DNA from: Terriglobales bacterium
GTDB lineage: Bacteria > Acidobacteriota > Terriglobia > Terriglobales > Acidobacteriaceae
Reading direction: 5' to 3'
Assembly: GCA_025462725.1 (NCBI GenBank)
Contig: JAOAPE010000012.1
Coordinates: 62,001-126,000 of the forward strand
Length of the DNA: 64,000 nucleotides
The notes under the pieces are model-generated. The model saw nothing but the letters and a program-made list of their open reading frames with translations. It made no database searches and was not told where the DNA came from. Shown here one piece after another: positions 4,403 to 12,520 of this stretch. Position 1 is the stretch's first letter; the number at the start of each line of letters is the position of its first letter. Made by a program: the position numbers and the translations under genes.

Positions 4403-5992
4403 CTAATACTCGATTTCCCGCGAGCTGATCATTCTTGGCGGAGCTGGATTTCCGTTGCTTTGCAGAGCGCATTGATCGTAGTGGATCGCCGCACTGCCAC
4501 CGAGCACAGTGTCATCCACTGAACTCTTACCGGCAAGAACCGATCCGAAGATATTGGTCTTGTTAGCGCCGCCGCCGCTGAATTTGACGACGCCTTTGAC
4601 CAGGATAAGCCCGAAGAATTGAAGTCCGCCGTTGATATCGAGGTCGCCATCGACGATCAAGATGCCATTACCGATCGAACCGGCTGTAATCTTCAAATCA
4701 CCAGGCACATAGGTGACTTGCGTCTGCTGTGCGCCTAGAGAAGGATCGTTGGCAGGCGGATCACTTGGTGCGCTGCCGTCCGCAGGAAACAACGGCGGTA
4801 TGCCGAAAGTTTGACCCGAGTGTTGTCCGCAACCCGGGCTGCAGGTGTAATTGTATGGAGCCTGCGTCGCGTCAACCGTTCCCGGCTGGCTCTTGTAGCG
4901 GTTGATCAGGGCAGCTACATCTGTCACTTTGGCCTGATTCTCGGCGATGATGGGACTGGTTCCGGCTGTCGCAGACTCGCTCTTGCCAGTCAAGGCATCA
5001 ACATTGGAATTGGAGTAGATCGCGTACTTGTCCGCAAGGCAAGTCTTACCCGGCTTGTTGCTGCAGACATATACGGAAGGCTTCGCATTGTTCCAGGCGC
5101 AACTGCAGCTGCATGCGTCATATCCATCCACAGTGAGCGCGCCGTTCAGGGTAACGTGGTCCTGTGAATTCACCGCAGAGTTGTTGTAAAACGGCGGATC
5201 GTCAGCGACTTCTATGCTTAGCGTGCGTTCCGAACCGCTGGCCAGCCTGCTCAAAGAAGTGATCAGAAAGACCGGGTTCATGACCGTGCCGCCCGCCAAA
5301 GGAGTCTTGCAATCAACTTGGCCGGCTGGAAGTATGACCTGTTGTGTTCCATCCCAACAGACCATGCGATTGTTATTGGCGCCAACGCTGGAGTCCACTT
5401 GATACGGATAATCCAATGGTGCGGCCGCGGTCGTCAATGGCGAGCCGGATCGGTTCGCCTTCAATGTGATTCGTACCCATTTGTATGAAAGCGCGGAAGC
5501 CGTGCCAGTGTTCAGCGAATTGCTGTTTACCGTTGTATACCAAGCGGCCGTAGGTGCTTGGGCTGGCGTGCATCGAGTGTTTTGCGTTCCGTAAGCTATG
5601 TTAAGTCCCGGGAAGTTCGCTTTGCAGATAGTGTCGTCAAAATACTGGTTGGTGGAATCCCAAGGCACTGCAGCAGCTTCGCCGGCAGCCGGGTTAAGAA
5701 TGTATATGCCGCCGGTCGTCGCGGCTGCGGTAGGCATGGTCAATGCATTTGCCTGGGCATAGAGGTCGCCCGCAGCCGAGCCCTTCGTAATCCTTAAGCG
5801 CCCTTCTTGAAGTCCGGCACGCGCCGCGAAATACGCTTGTTGTCCTGCGCGGTAGTTCGCATTTACGGCTGTTTCGGTATTCGCAAGGTACATGAATCCC
5901 GCGGCGATCGCCGACAGCAACATCAACGCGAAGATGGCCATAAACAACGCTATGCCACGTTCATTATTCCGTTTTGTATGTTTTGCGTCCAT
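4403..5992 (-). CDS. pilX: PilX-like minor pilin / type IV pilus assembly protein
   Basis: A 529-residue protein whose N-terminus carries a short basic leader and Gly13 followed by a hydrophobic helix ('IALFMAIFALMLLSAI'), as in PilX pseudopilins. It lacks the Glu at +5, which is typical of that family. The segment 'AGQQAYFAARAGLQEGR' matches the conserved PilX N-terminal domain. The C-terminal half has a cysteine cluster (two CxC steps near residue 295 and further Cys to about 385) and Gly-rich beta repeats 'GDLDINGGLQFFGLILVKG'. It is much longer than proteobacterial PilX (about 200 residues), so the C-terminal part is likely a tip-exposed domain. Fourth gene in the operon. Confidence 0.85.
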   Translation of the reverse strand: MDAKHTKRNNERGIALFMAIFALMLLSAIAAGFMYLANTETAVNANYRAGQQAYFAARAGLQEGRLRITKGSAAGDLYAQANALTMPTAAATTGGIYILNPAAGEAAAVPWDSTNQYFDDTICKANFPGLNIAYGTQNTRCTPAQAPTAAWYTTVNSNSLNTGTASALSYKWVRITLKANRSGSPLTTAAAPLDYPYQVDSSVGANNNRMVCWDGTQQVILPAGQVDCKTPLAGGTVMNPVFLITSLSRLASGSERTLSIEVADDPPFYNNSAVNSQDHVTLNGALTVDGYDACSCSCAWNNAKPSVYVCSNKPGKTCLADKYAIYSNSNVDALTGKSESATAGTSPIIAENQAKVTDVAALINRYKSQPGTVDATQAPYNYTCSPGCGQHSGQTFGIPPLFPADGSAPSDPPANDPSLGAQQTQVTYVPGDLKITAGSIGNGILIVDGDLDINGGLQFFGLILVKGVVKFSGGGANKTNIFGSVLAGKSSVDDTVLGGSAAIHYDQCALQSNGNPAPPRMISSREIEY

Positions 5993-6103
5993 AAAGTTTT
6001 GTCCTTGCTCCGTTCAGGCTGTTACCTACCCACAAAGCCTTGAGCCAAACTTGCTTTTGAGAATCCAGTGAGGGTCCCCAGTAACCCACTAGCCACCGCT
6101 TCT

Positions 6104-6859
6104 CTACTTATTCGCAATTCGCGCTGATGCCGTCATTGAACTTGCCGGAAACACCTTGCTGACCGGGTCCACGGTTGTAGAAAGCGTGCTCACTGTGATT
6201 CGAATAGCCCGTACGTTTGCCACCGTTAATGGTGGCGTGAGTTCCACACCAAACTGGTCGTAATAGCGGAAGATCGGGTCAGTCTTAAAATCCGCGTAAC
6301 GGGTGTCATTGGCCACAGTGCCCACGCCGCTCATGTTGGCGGAGTTCCCGGCGATCACCCATGATCCTGCACCGCCGCTACTATTGATGACTCCATCTAC
6401 TTCTTGCGTGAAGTTGGTTCCTGCAACACCTTTTTGTAATTGTGAGCGCTGCAAGATGCACGGACACTGTCCTGCCGGTATTCCGGCATTGGGATCGGTG
6501 ATCAGGCTGTATTGCACCGTGTCCACGACGCCGTCACCATCTACGTCGCCCTCGAATGAAAGGCTCGTAGTCGTCCCATTGAGCAGTCCTGCAGCATAGG
6601 AAGTGCTTGTCACCGCCGGTGCAGTGGCATACATGCTACTCGTCGGATAACCAGCTTGGTGAAGGTCGCGCACCATCTGTTCCACGAACTCGCGCGATTC
6701 CTGCGTGAGGTCAACCTTTGCTTCTTCCACGCGCGACCGTTTTTGCACGTCGTTGATGGCAGTCATGGTCACCGCAAGGACAAGTGAAAGGATTCCCAGC
6801 ACCATCATCATTTCCAACAGTGAAAATCCGCGCTCGGTTCTGCTCGCATTCTGTTTCAT
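6104..6859 (-). CDS. pilW: PilW-like minor pilin
   Basis: A 251-residue type IV prepilin. The leader ends at Gly11 and is followed by FSLLE with Glu at +5, then the hydrophobic helix 'MMMVLGILSLVLAVTM', the classical prepilin peptidase site. The following region ('RVEEAKVDLTQESREFVEQMVRDLHQAGYP') is the helix typical of PilW family pilins. A 'GDVDGDGVVDTVQYSL' segment looks like a calcium-binding loop. It starts 9 nt downstream of PilV, so it is in the same transcript. Minor pilins of this set prime pilus assembly in the inner membrane and sit at the tip. Confidence 0.88.
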   Translation of the reverse strand: MKQNASRTERGFSLLEMMMVLGILSLVLAVTMTAINDVQKRSRVEEAKVDLTQESREFVEQMVRDLHQAGYPTSSMYATAPAVTSTSYAAGLLNGTTTSLSFEGDVDGDGVVDTVQYSLITDPNAGIPAGQCPCILQRSQLQKGVAGTNFTQEVDGVINSSGGAGSWVIAGNSANMSGVGTVANDTRYADFKTDPIFRYYDQFGVELTPPLTVANVRAIRITVSTLSTTVDPVSKVFPASSMTASARIANK

Positions 6860-6868
6860 CTGGTCCTC

Positions 6869-7483
6869 TTAATTTCCTAGAACTGTCTTCAACTGTGCCG
6901 GTATCGCAAACGCTTTCAAAGCGTCTGCCCGGTTGTAATTGGCGCCCGTATTTCGCGTCGCCACAGTCACAGTCTTAGTGAATCCATTAGCATCAACAAC
7001 GATGTTCCAGCGGACGTCGTAGATTATTTGCTGCCCTGCATTGATTCCACAGGAGGCATAGGCCATTCCGTAACCGTTGCCCGGTGCTGCGCCATATGCG
7101 GCAGCAACGTTGAAATTGATATCTGACGAAACCCAAACGGGTACGTTGTCAGTGCCTCTGGTGGCCGCTCCCGCACCAGCCGGAGCCACTGCCCCTGTCG
7201 TATTGATGTTCCAAACAGTTCCGGCACAATCTGTGACCGTGAAGACTTTGTTCGTCGATGCAGGAATGTTCGCCATCTGCTCGATAACCATTTGTGAGAT
7301 CAGGGTCGCACTGGTATCTGTGCGGTTGCGACCGTTCGTAGCCAACGCCGTTACGACCATCGCCATGATCCCTGAAAGCCCGATCGCCAGTACCATCATC
7401 GCGATGAGCAATTCGACCAGCGTCATTCCCGACTCACGGCTCTTGTTGCTCGGCTTCCGAAACAAAGTTCTTTTCATATCCAT
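6869..7483 (-). CDS. pilV: PilV-like minor pilin
   Basis: A 204-residue type IV prepilin. The cleavage motif is Gly19 followed by MTLVE (Glu at +5) and the helix 'LLIAMMVLAIGLSGIMAMV', which is characteristic of PilV. The globular part is Ala/Asn-rich with several cysteines that could form a disulfide. It lies 23 nt downstream of the FimT/GspH-like gene and 9 nt upstream of PilW, matching the usual fimT-pilV-pilW-pilX order. Confidence 0.88.
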   Translation of the reverse strand: MDMKRTLFRKPSNKSRESGMTLVELLIAMMVLAIGLSGIMAMVVTALATNGRNRTDTSATLISQMVIEQMANIPASTNKVFTVTDCAGTVWNINTTGAVAPAGAGAATRGTDNVPVWVSSDINFNVAAAYGAAPGNGYGMAYASCGINAGQQIIYDVRWNIVVDANGFTKTVTVATRNTGANYNRADALKAFAIPAQLKTVLGN

Positions 7484-7506
7484 TCCTTATGCGACTTTCC
7501 CTGGCG

Positions 7507-8142
7507 CTAGTACCAGGATGGTGCCGGTGTTCCCGGCTGGTACGTGTACGCTTTCACCCGCCCTGCTTGAGTGATCGTGATGGCCGCCCATCCAGGTGCC
7601 GCGAGTGCCCGTGTTTGCTGCATGTAAACGATGTAAGGAGCGATGGTGTTACATATCGGTGGGTTACTGCACGGCAACCCGCGCTCGTTAAAAGCAATGT
7701 CCACGGTGTTTGCCTTTATGTAGGGCGGAAAGAGAACATTTGGGGGAACGGTCGCCGGGCCACCTGTTCCGTCGTTGATCGTCGTGTCATTGGGGATAGC
7801 GACGGAGGGTTCGCCCACGTCCAATAGACTGTTTCCATTTGTATCGATATACAAGGTCAACAAGCCATTTGGCGGCACAGCCGCTTGCGTACGCATCCGG
7901 TAGTACTTGTTGTCCCTGACGGCTTGCATCCGCAACTGCTGAATCAAGCCGTTCACGTTCGTCGCTGTTGCGCGAAGCCGAATGTTGGACAGAGATTTGG
8001 TGATGGTCGGCACAGCAAATGCCGTGATCACCATGATGATAGCCACCACTACGAGCAGTTCCGTCAGCGAGAACCCAGCCCGTTCATCCGATTGTCTTGT
8101 TTTTCTATGCATTGAATGGATCTCCCGCGCCTTCATCTTCAA
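7507..8142 (-). CDS. FimT/GspH-like pseudopilin, first gene of minor-pilin operon
   Basis: A 211-residue prepilin. Gly23 precedes FSLTE (Glu28 at +5) and the helix 'LLVVVAIIMVITAFAVPTI', followed by the 'RLRATATNVNGLIQQLRMQAVRDN' segment typical of GspH/FimT. An alternative start at Met11 would give a shorter leader of the usual length. As the first gene of the operon it follows a 178-nt intergenic stretch that contains a perfect 8-bp inverted repeat. GspH/FimT proteins are minor pilins involved in initiating the pseudopilus or in DNA binding by competence pili. No motor or secretin genes lie nearby. Confidence 0.87.
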   Translation of the reverse strand: MKMKAREIHSMHRKTRQSDERAGFSLTELLVVVAIIMVITAFAVPTITKSLSNIRLRATATNVNGLIQQLRMQAVRDNKYYRMRTQAAVPPNGLLTLYIDTNGNSLLDVGEPSVAIPNDTTINDGTGGPATVPPNVLFPPYIKANTVDIAFNERGLPCSNPPICNTIAPYIVYMQQTRALAAPGWAAITITQAGRVKAYTYQPGTPAPSWY

Positions 8143-8770: not shown

Positions 8771-8844
8771 GCGCGGAAGTGTATCAGCGTGAACTCTTTT
8801 TCCAAAAACAAAACCGCAGCGACTCAGCGTCCAACGCGCAAACA

Positions 8845-8873
8845 AAAAGCCCAGCCATTTAGGCCGGGCTTTT
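8845..8873 (-). terminator. Rho-independent terminator after the radical SAM gene
   Basis: Stem AAAAGCCC / GGGCTTTT with an inner GCC/GGC extension and ATTTA-containing loop. On the minus strand it ends in a T-rich tail. It lies 22 nt after the stop of the radical SAM gene. Confidence 0.88.
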
Positions 8874-8894: not shown

Positions 8895-10997
8895 CTAGTC
8901 TCCCATTACCGGTTCTTCTTTTTCAGCCTTCGCCGGTGCTGGCTTGATTCCGCCCAACTGGTCGATGCTCACGAAACCACCCTCAGGCGCTTTTTCACCC
9001 AGGACGTTCTCGCGATACAGTTTCGCCATGCGCGCATTCTCAGCATCCTGCTTGATCTTCGCATCACGTGCGCGGACTTTCTCTTCGCGCGCAGTCTTCG
9101 CGATACCTTTGTCATCAAGATCGTGTTGCAAGCCGCCGTCAACGTGCTCTTGGTTCAGCTTGAGCCGCAATTCCGCTTCGCCGATGCCCACTTTCTTTCC
9201 GCCCGCGAAGATCTCATGCCGACCGTGCTCTTCGTACCATTTGGTAAGCGTGGCCGTCATGTGCATCTTCTCGATGATATTTCTCCAACCCACACCGGTG
9301 TTGTATGCGCAGAAGCTGATCTCGCCTTCCTGCGTGGCGTAAGGGATGATGCACTGTTCAGTACGACGGAAATCGTAGTTGAACAGGTCCTGGAACCACA
9401 TGCCTGCGATGAACAGGAAGTTCCATCGGTCTTTGCGGCGCTTCTCGATGTCCGCCATTGTGCGGTCGCCGGTGACGCTGCCGTAGTTGCGTCCCGTTGC
9501 TCCAAAGCATTTATCAAACTTCGCCAGCAGCGAGAAGATGCTGAAGTGCGTTGGCGCGTTGAACGGATTGTAATTTCTGAGCAATGCCAGCGTGACGCCA
9601 GCGACTGACAGGAACTTCCCGCGGCCTGCATCGTTGATGCGCGCTACGTCTTTCGCCAGGCGATCAGCATTGAGGAACGCCGTGACCGGCGCAGATTCCT
9701 TCGTTTCTTTGTCGATCATCAGCGCCATGCCGATACCGCAATTCGGGTGGCATCCGCAGCTCAGCTGTCCCCAATCTGCGGTCGGCCCATGTACCAGGTC
9801 AGCCCAGTCAGAGAAGGTGCTCATAAAGCTGATAGGGAACCAATCGCGGACAGGCTCGCCTAATCCCGTCTGGTTCTTTACATCATGCGCGAGATGGCTC
9901 AGCGTATAGCGTTGTGCTTCGCGACGCTCATCGGTGACTTCTTCATCGCGTCCAGTGAACGATACCGGCTGGAAGCTCAAGAAGCTGATGATCTTCGGAT
10001 TGTCCAACGCGAATTGGATGATCTTTCCAACCTGCTCGTTATTGATTCCGTTCACGATGGTCGTTACCGGAACAATGTCAACGCCGGCTGCGTGCAGGTT
10101 CTGGATCGCGCGCACCTTCACGTCAAACATGTTGCCCACTTTGCGGTGAGCGTTCGCGGCATTTCCGATTCCATCAAATTGCAGGTACGCGTAGCGCAAT
10201 CCTGCTTCCGCAGCTTGCTTGCAGAACTCAGGGCTCTTCGCAAATTCGATACCGTTCGTCGCAGCCTGCACTGAGTTGTATCCAACTTTGCGCGAGTAGC
10301 GGACAGCATCGAGGAAATACGGCGACAGAGTCGGCTCGCCGCCTGAGAACTGTACAGACATCTGGCGACGCGGCTTGATCGTGATCGCGTTATCCAGCAT
10401 GGTCTTGATCTCGTCCCACGTCAGTTCGTGGACGAACCCGACCTGGTTCGCATCCATGAAGCACGGATCGCACATCATGTTGCAACGGTTCGTAAGGTCG
10501 ATGGTCAACACCGATCCGCGGCCATGCTTCACCGTGGACGTGCCGTGATTGTGCAGCTTCTCGTCATTGTGCGCGGCGATATCGCGCCCCGGGAAGACTT
10601 CTTCCAGGTGCTTGAAGAACGCCGTGTCCATGGCCATGATGTCTTCAAAGTGGCCGTGCTTGGGGCAGTCCTTAACCATCAGGATCTTGCCATCGCGTTC
10701 GATGATCTGCGCTTTGATCTCGCCGACTTTTTCATTGAGCAGAACTTCATGCGGCAATTTGCCGTCAAGGATCTGCTGGCGGATCTCAGGCACGCATCGC
10801 GGACACAACGAGTCCGTCGTTCGCGGCCACCCTAGCGGCGGCTTTTGTTTTTCGTAGGATTTCAGCAGCGGTTTGTCTGACCAATTCGGAGTGAATGAGG
10901 GTTTTTGCGCAATCTGGTTCAGCGTATCGAACACGTTCCAAGCGCCGTTCGCGACTACGGCCAATACCTTCTCGGCATACTTAACTGGTTTATGCAT
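8895..10997 (-). CDS. Radical SAM enzyme of the Tes/MSS type (candidate membrane-spanning lipid synthase)
   Basis: About 700 residues from the ATG at 10997; a GAGGAG-like ribosome site lies some 12 nt upstream, and the longer TTG start is less likely. The core radical SAM motif is C-x3-C-x2-C (Cys172, 176, 179), with the 'GGEPTLSP' SAM-binding motif at 219-226. An N-terminal domain has Cys65/Cys68 ('LCPRC') and Cys111-x2-His114 ('DCPKHG'). A downstream cysteine set (Cys414, 416, 420 in 'CGCHPNCG') suggests auxiliary iron-sulfur or metal sites. This architecture is that of the MJ0619/archaeal tetraether synthase family and bacterial membrane-spanning-lipid synthases, which join lipid tails at unactivated carbons. 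A lipid substrate is inference; other members act on pterins. Monocistronic with its own terminator. Confidence 0.72.
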   Translation of the reverse strand: MHKPVKYAEKVLAVVANGAWNVFDTLNQIAQKPSFTPNWSDKPLLKSYEKQKPPLGWPRTTDSLCPRCVPEIRQQILDGKLPHEVLLNEKVGEIKAQIIERDGKILMVKDCPKHGHFEDIMAMDTAFFKHLEEVFPGRDIAAHNDEKLHNHGTSTVKHGRGSVLTIDLTNRCNMMCDPCFMDANQVGFVHELTWDEIKTMLDNAITIKPRRQMSVQFSGGEPTLSPYFLDAVRYSRKVGYNSVQAATNGIEFAKSPEFCKQAAEAGLRYAYLQFDGIGNAANAHRKVGNMFDVKVRAIQNLHAAGVDIVPVTTIVNGINNEQVGKIIQFALDNPKIISFLSFQPVSFTGRDEEVTDERREAQRYTLSHLAHDVKNQTGLGEPVRDWFPISFMSTFSDWADLVHGPTADWGQLSCGCHPNCGIGMALMIDKETKESAPVTAFLNADRLAKDVARINDAGRGKFLSVAGVTLALLRNYNPFNAPTHFSIFSLLAKFDKCFGATGRNYGSVTGDRTMADIEKRRKDRWNFLFIAGMWFQDLFNYDFRRTEQCIIPYATQEGEISFCAYNTGVGWRNIIEKMHMTATLTKWYEEHGRHEIFAGGKKVGIGEAELRLKLNQEHVDGGLQHDLDDKGIAKTAREEKVRARDAKIKQDAENARMAKLYRENVLGEKAPEGGFVSIDQLGGIKPAPAKAEKEEPVMGD

Positions 10998-11395
10998 TCT
11001 GACTTTTCTTCTCCTCAAATGGTCTCGTCACAACGGACAAAACTTACTGCACTAAAAGCCAGTCAACCGTCTTCGGGCTAATCTGGCGGAAGTACCTGCT
11101 GTTCATACAGATACAATAAATCCACTCTAGACTATTGCCTAGCGGATGGTACCTAAACAGCTAACCCACGAACGGTGCAAATCTGCCACTGAATGGGGAT
11201 TAAGGGCAGGGAACGGACATGCCTGTTCTTTTCTCAACAGAACTCAACAGTGACACACTGCAACATAGGCCACCGCATTTTAGCAAGGTCAATCCCAATG
11301 AATCGGATTAAGTGCGAGAAAGCCTCAGCCAATGATCATGAAAAAATATCCGAAGAGAGCAAAAATAGTCACCACGAAATTGAGGTCTCAGCCTG
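10998..11395. other. Intergenic region between divergent genes
   Basis: About 400 nt between the radical SAM gene and the nitronate monooxygenase gene, presumably holding both promoters. I see no RNA gene, no clear inverted repeat and no riboswitch-like conserved core. A 67-codon open frame (11193-11396) ends exactly at the next start codon but has no convincing ribosome site. Confidence 0.5.
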
Positions 11396-12520
11396 ATGAA
11401 CGCATGGAATCGCAATCGCATCACTTCTATCCTGGGAATTGACTACCCGATCATTCAAGGTCCGTTCGGCGGATACGCATCGCAAAGATTGACGGCTGCC
11501 GTCTCCAACTTCGGTGGATTGGGATCTTTCGGGGCGCTGAACTTGACGCCGCAGGCGATCACAGAAGTTATCTCTGAGATTCGTTCTCTTACATCCAGGC
11601 CGTTCGCTATGAATTTGTGGGTCTCGCAGGAAGACGAAGGCGCGCGAACCTCGGATGCTAACGCTTTCGAGCGCAGTCTGGCGCCGCTTGTGGCCCATTT
11701 TGGCGCCTTGGGAGTACCTCTCCCGATGTACAAAGCGTATTCGCCGGCGACGCGATTTGAAGATCAAGTTCGTGCTGTTATCGATTCGAACGTACCGGCA
11801 CTCAGCTTCATCTTTGGCATTCCTCCGAAAGAAATTCTGGACGAGTGTCGGGCGAGGAACATCGTCACGATTGGCGCAGCGACAACACCTGAAGAGGCTG
11901 TGCTCTTACAGGAAGCCGGTGTCAATGCGATTGTTGCATCCGGCTTCGAAGCTGGTGGCCACCGTGGCTCATTCCTCCGTGCTGCAGAGGATTCGCTCAC
12001 GGGCACTTTCTCGCTCGTTCCTCAGATCGTCGACGCCGTTGATGTCCCTGTGATCGCCGCGGGTGGGGTCGCAGATGCGCGCGGCGTCATCGCCGCCCTC
12101 GCGCTCGGCGCAGAGGCCGTTCAAATGGGAACTGTATTCCTTACGTGTGCGGAGTCCGGTGCCAGCCGCCTTCATCGCGAGACCTTGTTGCAGAGAAATG
12201 CCGACCGTACCCAGTTAACAAAAGGCTTCACGGGTAGACTGGCTCGGGGGATACACAACCGCTTGATGGAGGAGTTGAACCGAAAAGAAACCGGGATACT
12301 GCCCTACCCGCTGCAACGGGCGCTCATTAAAAACCTCTCGGTCGCCGCAGAGAGCGAGGGCCGATCGGATCTTCTGCCAATGTGGGCCGGGCAAAGTGCC
12401 AACCTGTCCAGTTGTACTGATGTGACGGCTTTCTTGACGTCACTGGTTGAGGACGTTTCCGAGGCTGCTGGTCCAATCATAGAGTGGAGCGCAACCCGTC
12501 GAAAGCACCATTCTGTGTAG
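11396..12520 (+). CDS. Nitronate monooxygenase / FabK-like flavoprotein
   Basis: A 374-residue TIM-barrel flavoprotein of the 2-nitropropane dioxygenase/FabK family. The N-terminus 'PIIQGPFGG' and 'AAVSNFGGLGSFGAL' are the FMN-phosphate region motifs. 'SGFEAGGHRGSF' (about residues 181-192) carries the catalytic His of nitronate monooxygenases, and 'VPVIAAGGVADARGVIAALALGAEAVQMGTVFL' (quoted for position, about 218-250) holds the second Gly-rich phosphate-binding loop. It oxidises nitronates or related compounds using O2. A trans-2-enoyl-ACP reductase role is less likely because of the AGGHRG motif. It stands alone on the plus strand, with no operon partner. Confidence 0.88.
   Translation: MNAWNRNRITSILGIDYPIIQGPFGGYASQRLTAAVSNFGGLGSFGALNLTPQAITEVISEIRSLTSRPFAMNLWVSQEDEGARTSDANAFERSLAPLVAHFGALGVPLPMYKAYSPATRFEDQVRAVIDSNVPALSFIFGIPPKEILDECRARNIVTIGAATTPEEAVLLQEAGVNAIVASGFEAGGHRGSFLRAAEDSLTGTFSLVPQIVDAVDVPVIAAGGVADARGVIAALALGAEAVQMGTVFLTCAESGASRLHRETLLQRNADRTQLTKGFTGRLARGIHNRLMEELNRKETGILPYPLQRALIKNLSVAAESEGRSDLLPMWAGQSANLSSCTDVTAFLTSLVEDVSEAAGPIIEWSATRRKHHSV

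Follow-up and report, generated by a model that had tools for sequence, protein, structure and literature searches.

The window analysed here, a 64,000-nucleotide stretch of a Terriglobales genome (family Acidobacteriaceae), contains a radical SAM gene that we read as coding for a lipid synthase. At a probability of roughly 0.8, and by analogy with archaeal GDGT-MAS, its product would couple iso-C15 acyl tails to form iso-diabolic acid in a membrane-spanning lipid, probably ester-linked, and would do so without the N-terminal cluster. Our best reading is a predicted iso-diabolic acid synthase of aerobic Acidobacteria. What we observed directly is the family and fold of the protein, its conserved ligands, the clade to which it belongs and the occurrence of that clade in two strains with measured iso-diabolic acid. 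A preliminary description of the window had proposed a radical SAM enzyme of the Tes/MSS type. The protein's sequence and fold, its kept ligands, the tree and the lipids measured in strains all agree with a tail-coupling enzyme related to Tes.

A lone gene of the Tes superfamily

The open frame covers 8895-11018 on the minus strand; from the ATG at 10997 it encodes 700 aa (8895..10997, stop codon included), and an RBS-like GAGGAG ends 13 nt 5' of this codon. Together with the Tes profile and the sequence and fold matches to 7tol/7tom described below, this marks a whole gene of the Tes/GDGT-MAS superfamily, of what we call type A. The gene is real, intact and alone. Its upstream neighbour is a divergent ORF at 11396 on the plus strand, and past its stop codon lies a stem-loop, AGCCCGGCC TAAAT GGCTGGGCT TTTTGTTT (8870-8840), with a T-rich tail. 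From the scan and from reading by eye we annotate this as an intrinsic terminator (8840..8870, minus strand). The scan of the region returned one site where shuffled sequences gave a mean of 3.5, a count that proves nothing, so the call is made on the stem of 9 bp (including one G-T pair), judged by eye. The same regional scan returned no sigma-70-like promoter (1.7 in shuffles). The lone gene with its own terminator of the preliminary description is thus borne out, the terminator through a stem read by eye.

Further downstream, at 4403-8142 on the same strand, are ORFs that by eye resemble type IV minor pilins. We rejected the neighbourhood as a clue to function: besides the gene itself, which our simple gene caller recovered in 66 of 81 stretches, no family occurred in more than 22 of the 81, and those families are unannotated.

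Pfam identifies the protein as Radical_SAM (PF04055, E 2.8e-18; core domain at residues 168-330, 10008..10496, minus strand) and Zn_ribbon_HMPTM (PF23545, E 3.6e-13). Against the NCBIfam Tes model, residues 61-580 score 324 bits (E 1.3e-96), under its equivalog cut-off of 450 bits; we therefore file the protein as a separate clade within the Tes superfamily and not as a Tes equivalog. It also misses the cut-off of the TrsS model NF045646 (212.6 bits against 490). Among solved relatives, GDGT-MAS (7tol/7tom) is the single strong one at E 8.5e-63, followed by MoaA at 2.6e-05. An AlphaFold (AF2) model for which 52 orthologs were used alongside the window protein has a mean pLDDT of 68.9 and a pTM of 0.75, with values under 50 at residues 144-190 (which hold the radical SAM motif), 412-418 and 535-599, so that the active site is weakly modelled. 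Foldseek with this model ranks 7TOM first, and VIA-align matches 7TOM with Z 22.1 and 3.9 A over 433 residues (spanning model residues 56-596), ahead of MoaA with Z 15.6 over 245. The predicted overall fold, in a model of middling confidence, is that of GDGT-MAS.

Three types of Tes-like proteins in the Acidobacteriota

At E 1e-30, the Tes model matches in 172 of 297 Acidobacteriota genomes. The canonical proteins (type B) score 470-620 bits at about 540 aa, and 34 genomes have a match over the Tes cut-off. Type A, to which the window protein belongs, scores about 270-350 bits for long copies and is mostly 610-760 aa long (the longest open frame among those listed has 863). Type C comprises seven rows, of which six prefer the TrsS model over Tes, L138 does slightly the reverse, and one exceeds the TrsS cut-off.

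Both trees recover type A as a single clade, with SH-aLRT 100 in the first and 100/100 in a more careful one that leaves out type C. A phylogeny with characterised Tes proteins had been suggested as a check; with MJ0619 in that role and as the root, the window protein falls in the type-A branch (100/100), which lies among the type-B rows, beside L112 and L114/L115 (100/100). The type-A stem is long, at 2.45 changes per column, and the program warns of long branches. Since MJ0619 is the sole archaeal row and the remainder are Acidobacteriota, these trees do not place type A among the Tes proteins of other phyla.

The best 80 of 580 relatives are 76-85% identical to the window protein and carry acidobacterial names, except for two contigs from Rhodanobacteraceae MAGs. 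Those two (L052 and L073) hold an 81% identical gene and are probably misbinned acidobacterial DNA. A tblastn search of plasmids gave ten records with weak relatives (21-28% identity).

All ten named Acidobacteriaceae genomes contain one full-length type-A protein and none has a match over the Tes cut-off; three of them hold an extra, weaker relative of 178-256 bits. Within the window's family, a Tes-model match is present in 31 of 31 listed genomes, 28 of them with a type-A score; in the three with type B, a type-A gene is present as well. The match is the only one at E 1e-30 in 23 of the 31; in the window genome itself, a second Tes-model match reaches only 70.1 bits. Types A and B lie about 1 to 6 kb apart in three genomes of the family (G073, G265 and G121; L144, L145 and L146), with a PilX-like ORF also near the pair in L146. 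Elsewhere, G096 (L116), G123 and G165 have three Tes-family matches.

Two type-A-like paralogs keep the radical SAM motif. The one in an Acidicapsa genome (L165, 639 aa) is by eye without the C-terminal cluster cysteines, reading SHPDS, LETSTAV and AFAFKN, and the one in the Edaphobacter aggregans genome (L164) is a 402-aa ORF that stops before the C-cluster region. They may represent a repurposed branch.

Metal sites

The radical SAM CX3CX2C core, the N-terminal CxxC/CxxH region and the downstream CxCx3C were found where the preliminary description had placed them: counted from the ATG at 10997, CxxC is at residues 65-68, CxxH at 111-114, CX3CX2C at 172-179 and CxCx3C at 414-420. Their Cys/His columns are invariant in the window protein and its 52 orthologs (78-85% identical; 53 rows), which, together with the Pfam domain matches, argues that the motifs are not chance.

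We mapped the residues of MJ0619 in a 76-row alignment of the window protein, MJ0619 and 38 type-A, 29 type-B and 7 type-C rows. This set drops all but 11 of the type-A rows above 1100 bits, the truncated ORFs (L113, L121, L126, L128, L129, L134, L137, L140, L142 and L143), the repeats L091, L109 and L110, and L141. All features below are on the minus strand. A rubredoxin-like mononuclear iron site (10656..10805) is formed by C65, C68, C111 and H114, equivalent to C9, C12, C33 and H36 of MJ0619 and covered by PF23545; the radical SAM cluster (10461..10484), supported by Pfam and the alignments, by C172, C176 and C179. The equivalents of C9, C12, C33, H36, C98, C102 and C105 are conserved in 38/38 type-A and 29/29 type-B rows, as are those of Gly145, Tyr195, Asp199, Gln268 and Arg275.

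The same holds for the C-terminal cluster, [Fe4S4]C, where C338, C455, C470, Met439 and Tyr459 have equivalents in every type-A (38/38) and type-B (29/29) row. Met439 is named as a ligand of this cluster, and the roles of Met439 and Tyr459 are described, in the GDGT-MAS paper (PMC9433317); from their conservation, C338, C455 and C470 are the likely Cys ligands. In the window protein, C420, the equivalent of C338 and a probable [Fe4S4]C ligand, closes the motif CGCHPNC (residues 414-420, 9738..9758), and the rest of the site (9309..9401) consists of M533 (Met439, the labile ligand), C549 (C455), Y553 (Tyr459) and C563 (C470). Cys438, beside Met439, has an equivalent in 0/38 type-A and 3/29 type-B rows.

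The N-terminal cluster, [Fe4S4]N, is where type A departs, a point absent from the preliminary description. At the position of its ligands C73, C77 and C80, the window protein has a Cys-free loop, HNHGTST (residues 149-155, 10533..10553). Equivalents of these three cysteines occur in none of the 38 type-A rows, in all 29 type-B rows and in all seven type-C rows; for H83, the putative His ligand, the counts are 1/38, 29/29 and 7/7. The C77 column is His in 38/38 type-A rows. Because this cluster is kept in MJ0619 as well as in types B and C, its loss in type A is the simpler reading.

The cysteines of the CxCx3C motif, of which C414 and C416 have no counterpart in MJ0619, are close to fixed in type A (C414 in 38/38 rows, C416 in 37/38, C420 in 38/38), and type-B rows have Cys in the C414 column in 3/29 and in the C416 column in 23/29. 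The preliminary description had taken CxCx3C as a feature of the Tes family in general, which our motif count corrects. In a set of 160 distinct ORFs that includes many near-copies, the motif occurs in 114 of 115 type-A ORFs, in one of two type-A fragments whose score filed them under B, and in a single true type-B row, L112. Of the 115, 112 have exactly one CX3CX2C plus one CxCx3C; two truncated ORFs lack CX3CX2C, and L124 lacks CxCx3C. L112 has the N-cluster motif and CSCHTNC together, and is a possible intermediate.

The window protein also carries extra segments at both ends. Before the first CxxC, type A is about 56 residues longer than MJ0619, and the AF2 model of the window protein has a mildly amphipathic helix there (residues 3-27, 10917..10991), with the hydrophobic moment of residues 3-20 ranking 45th of 682 windows; membrane contact is possible. 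A charge-rich tail (residues 600-700, 8898..9200), seen in the sequence, the AF2 model and the structure alignment, lies outside the stretch aligned to GDGT-MAS.

Ester or ether linkage

PF09989 (Ger/PlsA) has no match in the window genome, where the T. maritima control was positive, and the genome has a single PF01869 match, in a 313-aa ORF. The absence of PF09989 makes an ester-linked iso-diabolic acid the probable product, with ElbD outside the search. Across the phylum, PF09989 is found in 25/36 genomes with type B, 17/131 with type A alone (that is, A without B), 1/5 of the other typed genomes and 26/125 without a Tes match. The 172 genomes were typed by best E-value, with hand corrections of G293 and G080 to A and of G136 and G035 to B. 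Fisher's test on type gives p 1e-10, counted by genome and ignoring relatedness; by family, the counts are 11/14 with B vs 9/37 with A only.

In one genome, G203 (L167, 5181-10183, minus strand), a 1032-aa PF09989 ORF lies 248 bases downstream of a type-B gene and on its strand; the pair is likely a tetraether operon. We rejected a clean rule of A for ester and B for ether: PF09989 is absent from 11 of the 36 type-B genomes and present in 17 of the 131 type-A genomes, and tetraesters are reported from Koribacter, whose Tes homolog shows 42% identity.

Lipids of type-A strains

Edaphobacter modestus DSM 18101 (30.4%) and E. aggregans DSM 19364 (26.4%) are both reported to contain iso-diabolic acid, and glycerol ethers are given as undetected in these type strains (PMC11354219). 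Both are among the ten named genomes with a full-length type-A protein, and in E. aggregans DSM 19364 this is the one full-length Tes-model match, 83% identical to the window protein. Iso-diabolic acid, which the preliminary description had linked with such a gene, is the product that one would naturally expect. The comparison covers named strains positive for iso-diabolic acid, and with a Tes-model match in 31/31 genomes of the family, co-presence says little more than a lineage marker would. Strains of E. paludis are reported to hold 25-26% iso-diabolic acid and not to grow without oxygen; these are lipid data and not genome data, and they are in keeping with an enzyme active under aerobic conditions. 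Chloracidobacterium is described with two-chromosome genomes and iso-diabolic acid (PMC12816986), and for Solibacter a 2022 paper gives iso-diabolic acid as undetected.

That same paper attributes acidobacterial iso-diabolic acid to "a still unknown enzyme". Zeng et al. (2022) suggest that bacterial Tes homologs make membrane-spanning lipids, and list homologs in Koribacter (42%), in Solibacter (40%) and, as a candidate only, in E. aggregans (32% identity to archaeal Tes); the family assignment made here is therefore not new. From their identity, the Koribacter and Solibacter proteins would be type B. A 2025 paper describes the activity of bacterial Tes homologues as unconfirmed (PMC11868695). 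In the open-licence PMC literature, covered mostly at title and abstract level, we found no description of a bacterial clade that lacks the N-terminal cluster, and no assay of any acidobacterial or type-A member.

Proposed reaction and alternative readings

By analogy with GDGT-MAS, from which substrate use and step order are carried over, one pocket would receive a pair of iso-C15 acyl tails from (phospho)glycerolipids. A first 5'-deoxyadenosyl radical would take H from one tail end, whose carbon would then be bound to a sulfide in the C-terminal [Fe4S4] cluster. The other tail, once made a radical in its turn, would attack the bound carbon, so that a C-C bond joins the two and iso-diabolic acid results. 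For GDGT-MAS, the first substrate carbon is described as sitting on the C-terminal cluster through an S-C bond ahead of C-C bond formation (PMC9433317), and the retention of the [Fe4S4]C residues without exception in aligned type A supports lipid C-C coupling. This retention is informative since only 3/7 TrsS-like rows keep all three [Fe4S4]C cysteines; the contrast is weakened by Cys at the C456 column in 7/7 TrsS-like rows (none in types A and B), which makes an alternative cluster possible there.

A different division of labour is conceivable, in which an Mss of the T. maritima type makes the iso-diabolic acid and the window protein acts on lipids by another radical reaction, for instance cross-linking or methylating them. 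Validated mss is described from T. maritima (PMC11604127), in which no protein reaches E 1e-30 with the Tes model (at 1e-15 it has matches, but so have E. coli and B. subtilis); the "Tes/MSS" of the preliminary description may therefore join two branches. The window genome, with 20 PF04055 matches in all, offers other candidates, and the cysteines missing by eye from the Acidicapsa paralog indicate that the family changes. Against this, the [Fe4S4]C residues of the window protein are fully kept, and their known role is to hold a substrate carbon for C-C coupling; we consider this division unlikely. Less likely still is that the window protein couples chiefly ether-linked tails, as a brGDGT (tetraether) synthase. 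E. aggregans, without a match over the Tes cut-off, is reported to make brGDGT in small amounts (PMC13274423). The PF09989 data speak the other way, both in the window genome and across the phylum, where the domain accompanies type B more often than type A alone.

Going by the name of the Pfam domain that it matches (PF23545, HMPTM), the protein would be a pterin methyltransferase; the name Zn_ribbon_HMPTM, however, derives from MJ0619. The pterin function assigned to MJ0619 could not be corroborated by the authors who showed it to be GDGT-MAS, and who call the annotation incorrect (PMC9433317). We rejected this function as highly improbable, and placement in a "pterin-methyltransferase branch", which the preliminary description had named as refuting, is empty for the same reason. 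It is just as hard to credit that the protein is a decayed or regulatory, non-catalytic relative: one entire [Fe4S4] site is gone, but the remaining metal-site columns are invariant in the 53 aligned rows, window included.

The loss of [Fe4S4]N in type A may be an adaptation to growth in air, with an exposed cluster given up in favour of oxygen tolerance. A wider proposal, which we hold tentatively and at somewhat under even odds, is that this acidobacterial clade performs sp3-sp3 tail coupling with three metal sites and not four, having shed the surface N-terminal [Fe4S4], remodelled that loop on a His that never varies and made a pair of Cys next to the catalytic cluster permanent, for membrane-spanning lipids in air. 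If so, the N-terminal cluster would be dispensable for the coupling chemistry, and the phylum would split into two lipid routes, ester iso-diabolic acid by type A and tetraethers by type B with Ger. Thermometers based on brGDGT depend on these organisms. With one gene that is the sole Tes-model match at E 1e-30 in 23/31 listed family genomes, and with lipids measured in type strains, the question is directly testable. A natural variant without the N-terminal cluster also bears on a point raised in the GDGT-MAS paper, the role of the remaining metal sites (PMC9433317).

Comparison with known systems

The E. aggregans Tes homolog of Zeng et al. (2022) is an ortholog by its description there, with no difference of kind found. 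TrsS radical SAM (seleno)proteins (NF045646) align over window residues 93-378. The TrsS-like rows differ in keeping [Fe4S4]N (7/7), and in retaining all three [Fe4S4]C cysteines in only 3/7 and the Met in 2/7. Sahonero-Canavesi et al. are said to have described, in 2022, Mss from Thermotoga and Bacillota with tail-to-tail coupling of acyl chains. The proposed tail-to-tail coupling of fatty acyls is what the window protein would share with them; the lack of a Tes-model match at E 1e-30 in T. maritima sets them apart at the level of the profile, the sequences themselves not having been compared.

Archaeal Tes/GDGT-MAS (MJ0619, PDB 7TOL/7TOM) shares the fold over 433 residues, the rubredoxin-like site, the radical SAM and C-terminal clusters and the SAM-contact residues. 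Identity is 30%, and the window protein differs by the missing [Fe4S4]N cysteines (the second CX3CX2C of Tes) and by the added N-terminal helix, C414 and C416, and C-terminal tail; its expected substrate is iso-C15 acyl, where that of MJ0619 is phytanyl. Canonical bacterial Tes (type B) provides the nearest tree branches and shares all mapped catalytic residues but Ser271, whereas it keeps the [Fe4S4]N ligands, has a shorter chain (about 540 aa) and is found together with PF09989 more frequently.
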